NCBI GenBank assembly: GCA_027297435.1
Contig: JAPUIA010000156.1
Span: 1 to 38,023, forward strand
Length of the DNA stretch: 38,023 nt
Reading direction: 5' to 3'
Origin: Gammaproteobacteria bacterium
GTDB lineage: Bacteria > Pseudomonadota > Gammaproteobacteria > Pseudomonadales > Azotimanducaceae
Part shown: positions 6,418 through 12,939 of the stretch, one piece after another
How the letters are laid out: every line of letters starts with the position of its first letter
How positions within the stretch are numbered: the first letter of the stretch is position 1
Position numbers and translations under genes: made by a program
The notes under the pieces: model-generated
Seen by the model: the letters and a program-made list of their open reading frames with translations, nothing else
What the model was told of the DNA's origin: nothing
The model's database searches: none

Positions 6418-7122
6418 ATGCAAGTCAGCGTTTACCGATATAACCCCGACGTCGACGAAGTGCCGCAGATGCGGGACATGTCCGTGGATCTGCCCGAAGG
6501 TAAAGATCTCATGGTGCTCGACGTGTTAGAGCTATTGAAAGGTCAAGATCCAACACTTTCCTACCGGCGCTCGTGTCGTGAAGGTGTGTGCGGATCGGAC
6601 GGTATCAACATGAACGGTAAGAACGGGCTGGCTTGCATCACGCCGGTGTCCGAGGTGGTCAAGCGGGGCAAGTTGGTACTGCGTCCGTTGCCCGGCTTGC
6701 CGGTAGTACGGGACCTGGTCGTCGACATGACCCAGTTCTACCGGCAGTTTGAAAAGGTGCAACCCTACCTTATCAACGACCAGCCGCCGCCCGCGCAGGA
6801 ACGACTTCAATCACCTGAGCAACGGGCGGAACTCGACGGGCTGTATGAATGTATTTTGTGTGCGTGCTGCTCGACGGCCTGCCCGTCGTTTTGGTGGAAT
6901 CCGGACAAGTTCATCGGGCCGGCGGGCCTGCTGCAAGCCTATCGCTTCCTGGCCGACAGCCGCGATTCCGCGACCGCCGAGCGTCTCTCGAAACTGGACG
7001 ACCCGTTTAGCGTATTCCGTTGTCGAGGCATCATGAACTGTGTCAGCGTCTGCCCTAAAGGCCTGAATCCGACGAGGGCCATCGGTAAGATCCGTTCGAT
7101 GCTATTGCACCAGGGCACTTGA
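6418..7122 (+). CDS. sdhB: succinate dehydrogenase iron-sulfur subunit
   Basis: SdhB passes electrons from FAD to quinone through three Fe-S clusters. The 234-aa protein shows the [2Fe-2S] ligands Cys53, Cys58, Asp61 and Cys73 in SCREGVCGSDGINMNGKNG and the following LAC. The [4Fe-4S]/[3Fe-4S] cysteines are in ECILCACCSTACP (Cys145-155) and CRGIMNCVSVCPKG (Cys202, 208, 212). WNPDKFIGPAGLL and the C-terminal NPTRAIGKIRSML are typical. The ATG has AGAGAGA about 5 nt upstream, just right of the inserted element. The sdhA-sdhB gap is therefore largely that element. Confidence 0.96.
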   Translation: MQVSVYRYNPDVDEVPQMRDMSVDLPEGKDLMVLDVLELLKGQDPTLSYRRSCREGVCGSDGINMNGKNGLACITPVSEVVKRGKLVLRPLPGLPVVRDLVVDMTQFYRQFEKVQPYLINDQPPPAQERLQSPEQRAELDGLYECILCACCSTACPSFWWNPDKFIGPAGLLQAYRFLADSRDSATAERLSKLDDPFSVFRCRGIMNCVSVCPKGLNPTRAIGKIRSMLLHQGT

Positions 7123-7144
7123 ATAGACGTCCGTTTACCGCGCG

Positions 7145-7164
7145 AGCGTTGCTCAGGGAACGCT
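7145..7164 (+). promoter_or_regulatory. apparent original sucA ribosome-binding region, in a small hairpin
   Basis: AGCGTT (7145-7150) and AACGCT (7159-7164) pair around the loop GCTCAGGG. The AGGGA at 7155-7159 is now about 290 bases from sucA. If the MITE and one TA copy are removed, it would sit 7 nt before the sucA ATG, the normal Shine-Dalgarno distance. Confidence 0.5.
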
Positions 7165-7453
7165 AGTGTCCTGTCCGGGTAATTCGCCGCATTTCAGAGC
7201 TCACACCACGCAACAGTGCAAGGCGCGCTCTGCAGTTAATATCGGGTATATTGACAAGGGGCGCAACAAAGTAATGGTGCGCGCTGTGAGCTCCCGAAGG
7301 GCGCGTCCTGCAAGGCTTCTGGCAGCGTTTGCGCCAGCGGACCTGCTTTGCAGGTCCGACCCAATAACGCCAGGTATACCCTTCGAGCCGGCGCCTTGCC
7401 AGAACCTTGCAGGACACGCTGACTGTGAACGAATTACCCGGACAGGACACTAG
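7163..7453. mobile_element. MITE-like element with 24-bp perfect terminal inverted repeats, flush with the sucA start
   Basis: The left end (7163-7186, CTAGTGTCCTGTCCGGG...) and the right end (7430-7453) are perfect reverse complements over 24 bp. The outer CTA/TAG fits a duplicated TA target, as made by IS630/Tc1-mariner transposases, leaving a 285-bp body at 7166-7450. No transposase is encoded. The interior also folds: GAGCTCACA/TGTGAGCTC (7197-7205, 7285-7293), GTCCTGCAAGG/CCTTGCAGGAC flanking a stem CGGACCTGC-TTT-GCAGGTCCG. A perfect TTGACA at 7251-7256 with AATGGT 16 bp later could act as an outward promoter. Similar ORFs on both strands merely reflect the inverted ends. Confidence 0.85.
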
Positions 7454-7456
7454 ATG
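7444..7456 (+). promoter_or_regulatory. sucA ribosome-binding site supplied by the MITE terminal repeat
   Basis: AGGA within the right inverted end (GGACAGGACACTAG) lies 6 nt before the ATG at 7454. No other purine-rich site is near, so the element end appears to have replaced the native site. Confidence 0.55.
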
Positions 7457-10288
7457 GCGGAATCATTCTTAGATCGTATGAGCAAGAGCTCGCCTCTCGC
7501 GGGTACCAACGCCGCCTATGTGGAAGGGCTTTATGAGACCTATCTTGCGGAGCCGGATAGGTTGCCGTCGGAATGGCAAAACTTTTTCAACGAGCTACCG
7601 GTGGTAAGCGGCGCAGTCGACATTCCCCATAGCGGGATCCTGCAGCACTTCGAACGCATCGGCCGCAACCGCCTCAAAGCGCGTCCCGAGAAAGCCAGTG
7701 CGGCAATCGAGAGCGAACACGAACGCAAGCAGATGCGGGTCTCGGAACTCATTGCCGCCTACCGGCACCGCGGTCACAAGAAGGCCAACATCGACCCCCT
7801 CGACATGATGGAACGCCCCAGCATGCCGGTATTGGACCTCGCCTACCACGGGCTTTCCCCTGCCGAACTCGAAGAGATCTTCAGTACCGGGACGTTGTTC
7901 TATGGCGAAAGCACTGCAAAGCTTCGAGAGATCGTCGATGTGCTCGAGCAAACCTATTGCGCGAGCATCGGCGCGGAATACATGCACATCGTGCAACCGA
8001 GCGAACAGCTCTGGGTACAACAACGGCTAGAATCTGTGCGCTCGAAACCGCCACTGTCAGCGTCCGACCGGCGCAGCGTACTCGAACGCTTGACCGCGGC
8101 CGAAGGGCTTGAGAAGTATCTGCATGGCCGCTACCCAGGCACCAAACGGTTCGGGCTAGAGGGTGCTGAATCGCTCATTCCCTGCCTGCACGAGATGTTG
8201 CAGCGGCTGGGCTATCACGGCGTGCTCGAAAGCGTCATCGGCATGGCTCACCGCGGCCGGCTGAACGTTTTGGTCAACATTCTCGGCAAGGATCCATGGG
8301 ATCTTTTCGAGGAGTTCGACGGCAAAGTGACGCAGGAAGAAGGCTCCGGCTCAGGCGACGTTAAGTACCATCAGGGTTTCTCGACCAACGTCATGACGCC
8401 CGGAGGTGAAATGCACCTGGCACTGGCGTTCAATCCGTCACACCTGGAGATAGTGAGTCCGGTTGTGGAAGGATCGGTGCGGGCTCGTCAGGATCGACGC
8501 CGCGACTACGCGGGTGATTTCGTGGTGCCAATCTCCATACACGGCGACGCCGCCTTTGCCGGGCAGGGTGTCGTGATGGAGACGTTCCAGATGTCACAGA
8601 CCCGCGGGTTCAAGACCGGCGGGACCATCCACATCATCTTGAACAACCAGATCGGTTTTACCACGCATCGTCAGGACGACGCGCGCTCTACCGAGTACTG
8701 CACCGAGATTGCGAAGATGGTACAGGCGCCGATCTTCCATGTGAACGCAGACGACCCGGAAGCGGTGATATTCGTAACCCAGTTGGCCGCCGACTATCGA
8801 ATGGAGTTTCGCAAGGACGTCGTCATCGATCTCGTCTGCTATCGCCGCCGTGGGCACAACGAAGCGGAAGAACCGATGAAGACGCAGCCGCTGATGTACA
8901 GAAAGATTCGCGCGTTGGCGACCACCCGAGAGCTGTACGTGGAACGACTCGTCAACGAAGACGTCGTGAGCGAGGCTGAAGCGGGCGAGATGGCGGAGCA
9001 GTATCGCAGCACTCTCGACAGTGGCGGGCATGTCGCGATGAGTATCGTCAGCGAGCCGAACGAAGCGTTGTTTGTCAATTGGCACCCGTACCTTGGCCAC
9101 GAATGGACTGCCGCAGCGGACACGCGGGTTCCGAGAACTCGCTTCGTCGATGTCGCGGAACGCGTGAATCGCGTCCCCGACGGCTTCGAGGTACAACGCC
9201 AAGTGCAGAAGGTGTTGGATGACCGGGCGGCCATGACCGCGGACGCTCAGCCGATCAACTGGGGTTATGCAGAAACCATGGCCTATGCGACGCTGATCGA
9301 CGAAGGTCACGGGATACGTCTGACGGGGCAGGATGTCGGCGTCGGCACCTTTTCGCATCGCCATGCCTGTTTATACAATCAGCGCGACGGCAAACGATTT
9401 ATCCCGCTCAATCACCTAGCGGAGAAAACCAACTTCGATATTTACGATACGTTGCTGTCCGAAGAAGCGGTATTGGCCTTCGAATACGGCTATGCGACGA
9501 CGACGCCGGACACGTTGATTATTTGGGAAGCCCAATTCGGCGACTTTGCCAACGGCGCGCAGGTCGTCATCGATCAATTCATCGCATCCGGTGAAATCAA
9601 GTGGCAGCGTTTGTGTGGGCTGACGCTGTTGCTACCGCATGGTTATGAGGGCGGTGGGCCCGAACATTCCTCGGCGCGCCTGGAACGTTACCTACAGCTT
9701 TGCGCCGAGCACAACATGCAGGTGTGTGTGCCAACGACGCCCGCACAGATGTTTCACATGTTGCGGCGTCAAATGATTCGACCCTTGCGCAAGCCGTTGA
9801 TCGCGTTGACGCCGAAGAGCTTGTTGCGTCACAAACAGGCGGTGTCGACGCTGGACGAGTTGTACGACGGAGAGTTTCATACCGTAATGGAGGAGGTAGA
9901 CGATCTCGATCCTAGAGCGGTGGACCGTGTCGTCCTGTGTAGTGGCAAGGTTTACTACGACCTGTTGGCAACGCGTCGGGAGACGGCCGTCGACAACGTC
10001 GCCATTGTTCGCATCGAACAGCTCTACCCGTACCCCGAGGCGGAACTAGAGCGAGTCATCAAACCCTACCGCAATCTCAAAGACGTCGTGTGGTGCCAGG
10101 AAGAACCCATGAACCAGGGCGCCTGGTATTCGAGCCAACATCACACGCGCCGGACAATCCTGCGACACGACGAGTCGTTGTACCTTGCATATGCGGGACG
10201 CGATGCGTTCGCCGCTACGGCAAGTGGCTACGTCCAAGTGCACAACGATCGGCAGCGACAACTGGTCAACGACGCTCTATTTGGATAG
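7454..10288 (+). CDS. sucA: 2-oxoglutarate dehydrogenase E1 component
   Basis: SucA is the thiamine-diphosphate-dependent decarboxylase of the 2-oxoglutarate dehydrogenase complex, which makes succinyl-CoA from 2-oxoglutarate with SucB and Lpd. The 944-aa product begins [17 protein letters not shown], followed by the typical [10 protein letters not shown]. It contains [31 protein letters not shown], the ThDP/metal-binding stretch [18 protein letters not shown] through [10 protein letters not shown] (about 363-400), and [10 protein letters not shown] with [19 protein letters not shown]. Its ATG follows the MITE TAG directly. sucB starts 4 nt after the stop. Confidence 0.96.
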
Positions 10289-10292
10289 CAAT

Positions 10293-12939
<2,647 letters not shown>

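Follow-up and report, generated by a model that had tools for sequence, protein, structure and literature searches.

The window analysed here, a stretch of 38,023 nucleotides from a gammaproteobacterial contig (JAPUIA010000156.1), holds an sdh-suc operon in which a short inverted-repeat element lies between the ATG of sucA and an AGGGA motif resembling a Shine-Dalgarno (SD) sequence. The inverted-repeat structure is confirmed, and its reading as an insertion of the type of a miniature inverted-repeat transposable element (MITE), placed within the operon and separating the native AGGGA from the start codon, is supported. We further consider it quite probable that the element is a non-autonomous MITE that inserts into CTAG, that it entered a CTAG between the AGGGA and the start codon of sucA, and that stop codons serve its family as safe sites; translation of sucA is predicted to be initiated now on a leader folded into a hairpin.

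The element between sdhB and sucA

The element is bounded by perfect inverted arms of 24 nt each, which are 100% complementary and separated by 243 nt. Measured between its flanking TA dinucleotides it comprises 285 bp, and under a 4-bp CTAG duplication 283 bp (Table 1). Both duplication lengths (2 vs 4 bp) lead to an identical inferred empty site, so the sucA copy fits either. The native CAGGGAACG abuts the left side of the left CTAG, the sucA ATG (7454-7456) stands immediately 3' of the right CTAG, and GGACAGGA of the element end stops 6 nt ahead of this ATG. An earlier note on this DNA had described the 24-bp perfect inverted ends, the 285 bp, the TA flanks and the ATG following the right TAG, and the sequence agrees on all of these. 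Its proposal of a MITE-like insertion between SD and ATG is supported by the ends and by the genomic copies described below.

The sdhB and sucA genes are separated by a gap of 331 bp. The sucA frame is intact, encoding 944 amino acids (aa) with its domains, and the protein starts with MAESFLDRM. Element-free relatives of the same genus start, for example, with MAESYLERM at the same codon position, and because they begin at the corresponding codon, we regard the start at 7454 as correct. The element itself holds no open reading frame (ORF) of at least 100 aa. None of the other same-genus genomes (G001-G008) carries the element at sdhB-sucA. There, with sdhB ends located in 19 of 21 loci, the gap between the two genes measures 12 bp (G002, G003, G006, G008), 48 bp (G005), 51 bp (G001), 73 bp (G004) or 152 bp (G007). 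A comparison with Rfam gave a single match, with a score far under the gathering score, and a promoter and terminator scan found none.

Table 1. Features of the sdhB-sucA region in window coordinates.
Feature	Position	Strand	Remarks
MITE	7166..7450	.	285 bp, or 283 bp (7167-7449) with CTAG duplicated; inverted ends, 91% second copy, genomic end family
Left inverted end with CTAG flank	7163..7186	+	Arm match
Right inverted end with CTAG flank	7430..7453	-	Arm match
Left target TA	7164..7165	.	Within CTAG 7163-7166
Right target TA	7451..7452	.	Within CTAG 7450-7453
Native SD-like AGGGA	7155..7159	+	294 nt ahead of ATG in sequence; base of predicted hairpin
Element-end GGACAGGA	7440..7447	+	AGGA 6 nt from ATG; inside predicted stem
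sucA (2-oxoglutarate dehydrogenase E1)	7454..10288	+	Profile match; start conserved in relatives
sdhB, upstream operon gene	6418..7122	+	Profile match

Copies of the element in this and other genomes

The 312-bp stretch around the insertion matches 14 places in its own genome, a count that takes in the stretch itself and its ends, and a second full copy lies at C251:27669-27953 with 91% identity. The 14-base end GGACAGGACACTAG occurs in this genome at 13 exact places and at 34 places with at most one mismatch; the reversed-pattern control returned 0. The 91% copy, together with 34 end matches against none in the control, argues that the sucA element is not a chance structure, and the other genomic copies of its end that the earlier note had suggested looking for are thus present. 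Among 100 genomes of the taxonomic family (own included), a 13-base end was found at 265 exact places vs 5 for the control and was present in 19 of the genomes, and 5 of 38 genomes, counting the own one, have a match to the element body. Across 390 genomes of the order, the exact 14-base end was present in 6 (own included), at 32 places vs 5 control matches in 5 genomes. Counts above chance were obtained for G027 (6), G327 (3) and G447 (8); single matches in G210 and G376 were at chance level, given the control rate.

Nearest paired ends span about 50 to 406 bp. The few longer pairings (1.2-3.2 kb) have only 12-13 bases in common or bridge two copies. For many ends no partner was found in the vicinity, as at G001 loci and at loci L334, L341, L344, L349 and L350 of G447. 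Such solo ends could be decayed copies or one-ended events, and are probably the former. At L346, also in G447, two ends lying back to back form a minimal copy of about 40 bp. Elements with differing ends have an internal module in common, TATTGGCAAGGGNCGCAAC, seen in 18 of 331 loci, which makes the elements appear mosaic. Inner repeat parts match better within copies than expected (mean of 5.5 vs 6.7 mismatches of 17; 0 of 5000 permutations as good; 50 elements); this was rejected as evidence of selection on the RNA, as subfamilies account for the signal.

Preference for CTAG

To describe the insertion site, 153 ends (at most one mismatch in an 11-base core) were gathered from G000, G001, G004 and G007. 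The sample draws on 40 of 49 places for G001 and on 40 of 41 for G007, with one of these 40 G007 places, C62, left out; the G001 end L220 entered only through the ATG pattern, and the G004 copies through body similarity. TA stands outside 126 of the 153 ends, and TAG is read at 108 of these 126. In G021, which belongs to another genus and for which 40 of 82 places were taken, TAG is read at all 41 of 41 TA ends. Since both ends read TAG, the target is CTAG, at which a TA and a CTAG duplication give identical junctions. This preference of the family, CTAG stop codons included, is a finding beyond the earlier note.

Element junctions at the ends of genes

At a junction, the outer TA and the first base of the element, G, together read TAG. 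For each end, the 240 nt on its outer side were scored in all six frames, using a codon table built from seven genes of the window; on four of its own training genes, this scorer picked the correct frame for 104 of 104 windows. An in-frame TAG ends the best coding frame at 23 of 107 occupied CTAG ends, compared with 39 of 712 CTAG flanks that carry no element, taken from the window and the fetched stretches (p = 4e-7). After removal of gene interiors, a crudely defined class, the proportions are 23/87 vs 39/421 (p = 4.5e-5), and when L220, L221 and L222 are excluded, p ranges from 9e-7 to 0.006 over five score thresholds. An earlier histogram (32/63 at the junction) was inflated by antisense ORFs and is superseded by the six-frame test.

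Twenty-two of the 23 ORFs with a stop-codon junction were scanned, of which 18 lie above a Pfam cut-off, 1 below it and 3 had no match. Among the matches that extend as far as the last position of the protein and of the profile are those to ribosome recycling factor, ribosomal protein L18, the CysS C-terminal domain, SpoIIE and amidohydrolase, and these ends are for this reason native rather than truncated. Genes at paired ends include frr and those for an arginyl-tRNA-protein transferase, a PhyH protein, a luciferase-like protein, a B12-binding protein and a TonB receptor. The end at cysS is solo, and those at ssb and rplR are cut off by N or a contig end. The genes frr, rplR, ssb and cysS are usually regarded as essential. 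With a 54-bp paired copy, frr keeps the ortholog length and ends at the ortholog codon, the stop being TGA in the eight other same-genus genomes. The stop of ssb reads TTC-TAG-TGTCCTGTCC in G007 and TTC-TAG, with no element, in G002.

Other inserts are seen at the same kind of position. At the ssb stop codon of G008 (L317), an imperfect palindrome of another kind, about 38 bp long (by eye), lies where G007 has the CTAG-family end. Directly at the sdhB stop in G007 there is another inverted-repeat insert, with TT instead of TA as its right flank, which is absent from G002, G003, G006 and G008.

We propose that the family persists in compact genomes by occupying CTAG sites that lie outside coding frames or are themselves C-TAG stops, in which case the initial G of the element would let TA + G rebuild TAG on entry, as seen at single genes. 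The association with stop codons rather probably reflects only the choice of CTAG, the loss of insertions within genes and the slow decay of copies, with no active targeting of stops. CTAG duplication is known for IS5 and MITEPsy1, according to excerpts of PMC5493358 and PMC3189936, and the excess is greater among the solo, probably decayed, ends than among paired ones; both agree with this passive origin. Against it stands the excess that survives removal of the crudely classed gene interiors.

Several results weigh against the reading of the element as a CTAG-inserting MITE with safe sites at stop codons. When the junctions are split by structure (partner within 600 bp), stop-codon junctions make up 8/59 paired, 13/44 solo and 2/4 undecidable ends; compared with unoccupied sites, this gives p = 0.02 for paired and p = 2e-6 for solo ends. 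Solo ends thus drive the excess, and complete copies show it only modestly. Stop-codon rebuilding is statistically clear for all ends together and weaker for complete copies. The unoccupied CTAG set was drawn from the window and the fetched stretches instead of whole genomes, and seven genes of the window served to train the scorer. In G021, scored with its own three-gene table, the difference is not significant (6/41 vs 1/41, p = 0.11). The exact empty site of the sucA copy was found in no relative, the same-genus intergenic sequence being too unlike; the comparison with element-free relatives invited by the earlier note upheld the conserved start of sucA and yielded no exact empty site. Finally, no transposase gene with both ends was found: not for DDE_3 (PF13358) at 4 loci from 4 of 8 genomes, and not for DDE_Tnp_1 (PF01609) at 30 of 31 matches from 7 of 8 genomes, the search for an autonomous partner having covered these two transposase families only. 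At L259, one perfect end, not two, lies beside a PF01609 match.

Element junctions at start codons

At sucA the CTAG is not a stop codon and lies just ahead of the ATG. An ATG directly after the element TAG is found at 9 of 108 occupied sites and at 11 of 763 unoccupied ones. Among the ATG-adjacent ends, only those at sucA, at a PilZ-domain gene in the same genome and at mutM in G004 resemble true starts. With the scorer, 4 of 107 occupied ends pass, one of which (L106) opens a 16-aa frame only, compared with 3 of 720 unoccupied sites (p = 0.007), and one of these three is a putative lpxA behind another element family. This signal is small and carries no weight in our interpretation.

Three individual junctions were also noticed. 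In G447, which belongs to another family, a transporter permease gene begins directly after a solo GGACAGGACACTAG end (L344). At L007 (C19 of the own genome), an element of a different family, with ends like GGGAGNCTCTGATTAATT and with CTAG, stands directly before the ATG of a gene that we take to be lpxA; its relatives occur at L003-L005. At L235 (C255 of the own genome), the element seems to complete the stop of a frame on one side, and directly after it comes the ATG of a second frame, which breaks off after 29 codons; this second frame, without a Pfam match, is presumably glyoxalase-like.

Initiation of sucA translation

Pairing with the 16S tail, for which we assumed a sequence, amounts to -4.1 kcal/mol for the element end (37% of shuffles as good) and to -5.1 kcal/mol for the native site (51%), both at a spacing of 6. 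Five other genes of the operon are similarly weak (-3.1 to -6.0 kcal/mol). In the relatives, the SD of sucA is strong in G001 (-11.6) and G005 (-12.4), and its pairing is weak in G006 (-4.2), G003 (-4.2) and G008 (-6.7). The leader from 7123 to 7500 folds to -184.5 kcal/mol (z = -7.9 vs 100 shuffles), in keeping with the highly foldable leader that the earlier note had described. Stem pairs, sampled every third, have a probability of 1.0 from the fourth inward and of 0.67-0.87 at the base. In four fold windows, GGACAGGA lies within the stem with an unpaired probability of 0, the native AGGGA has a mean unpaired probability of about 0.6 (0.14-1.0 for single bases), and in the AUG the A is unpaired at 0.87-0.99 and the U and G at 0.32-0.69. 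As a predicted RNA, the element would hide its own AGGA and bring the native AGGGA near the AUG, one on each side of the stem base.

We postulate that a MITE jumped into a CTAG lying between AGGGA and the sucA ATG; the ends, the copies and the CTAG preference are observed, the jump itself is inferred. The coding sequence of sucA would have been left untouched, and its conservation suggests that translation still starts at 7454. Initiation would most likely proceed with the element as one long hairpin, with the AGGGA 3 nt from the base of the modelled stem and the AUG on the opposite side; whenever the stem opens, the AGGA in the end of the element may serve as a weak fallback. This mode of initiation is a prediction.

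In its specific form, in which the folded element joins the native AGGGA to the AUG and the original site is still used, as in genes 38 and 25 of phage T4, this bridging is a possibility towards which we lean slightly less than away. In those T4 genes, RNA structure between SD and AUG sets the working distance (excerpts of PMC3014915), which provides a precedent, and the predicted openness of the AGGGA (about 60%) and of the A of the AUG (87-99%) on either side of the stem is consistent with it. The uneven accessibility of single AGGGA bases and the partial pairing of the U and G speak against it, as do an effective spacing of 3 nt plus the helix end, precedent structures that are far smaller, and the predicted nature of the fold. 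The T4 leaders, as excerpted, have spacings of 22 and 27 nt and were tested by mutation; sucA has a mobile element of 285 nt and a prediction only.

The earlier note had proposed instead that the element end replaced the ribosome-binding site, so that sucA would be translated from the terminal-repeat GGACAGGA with the stem open. This swap is partly supported and, as an account of initiation, appears doubtful. The AGGA does stand 6 nt ahead of the ATG, its pairing energy resembles that of the five other operon genes, and the same end lies right before the ATG of mutM, of the PilZ-domain gene and of the transporter permease gene. However, the pairing is no better than that of many shuffles, the motif is buried in the predicted stem, and it belongs to the terminal repeat as such and is not specific to the sucA site.

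It is comparably unlikely that the element reduces translation of sucA or breaks its coupling and that this is tolerated as such, with no special means of initiation. The position of sucA 12 nt past the sdhB stop in G002, G003, G006 and G008, along with weak pairing in G006, G003 and G008, suggests translational coupling, which a gap of 331 nt would lose. Nevertheless, the strong SDs in G001 and G005 indicate that coupling is not general in the genus, and sucA remains an open frame with its domains. The most far-reaching idea, a translation-compatible transposon whose ends carry a self-restoring TAG for the upstream gene and an AGGA at working distance for the downstream gene, with a stem bridging the native site, we regard as improbable.

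Relation to known elements

The element is short, has 24-bp inverted ends, is too short for a transposase and exists in multiple genomic copies, as MITEs do. Its flanks, with TAG in 108/126 ends and in 41/41 in G021, conform to the target of the IS5 group. According to the excerpted texts, IS5 duplicates YTAR, mostly CTAG, with CTAG at 15 of 24 listed sites (PMC5493358), and MITEPsy1 duplicates CTAG or YTAA (PMC3189936); both thus resemble the sucA element family in inserting at CTAG. The terminal repeats given for MITEPsy1 in the excerpt differ from those of the sucA element (PMC3189936), and the same portions of both texts (PMC5493358, PMC3189936) do not mention the rebuilding of stop codons, unlike what is seen here. 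The Chunjie MITE of Geobacter uraniireducens may also count among the closest known systems. In the main text of a review on MITEs in prokaryotes (PMC10969869), the terms stop codon, Shine, ribosome and CTAG do not occur, and excerpts of PMC3119063, PMC6382973, PMC5756416 and PMC2229807 mention no MITE that rebuilds a stop codon or supplies an SD. Among the matches listed in the open-licence literature there was no paper on such a MITE, which is not proof that it is unpublished.

Another feature of the window

Further downstream (11504-12939), the gene that we take to be lpd (dihydrolipoyl dehydrogenase) appears split into two frames, which overlap by GTGA (12058-12061) close to a G run. It represents either a split gene or a sequencing frameshift.

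Implications

In gene-dense genomes, mobile elements need harmless sites, and a CTAG-specific element that starts with G would have C-TAG stop codons as a safe harbour. If the idea of a translation-compatible element were true, such an element could occupy the space between neighbouring operon genes, or even that separating an SD from its ATG, and stop neither gene. The sucA copy offers a natural test of whether a hairpin of 285 nt between SD and AUG still allows initiation.
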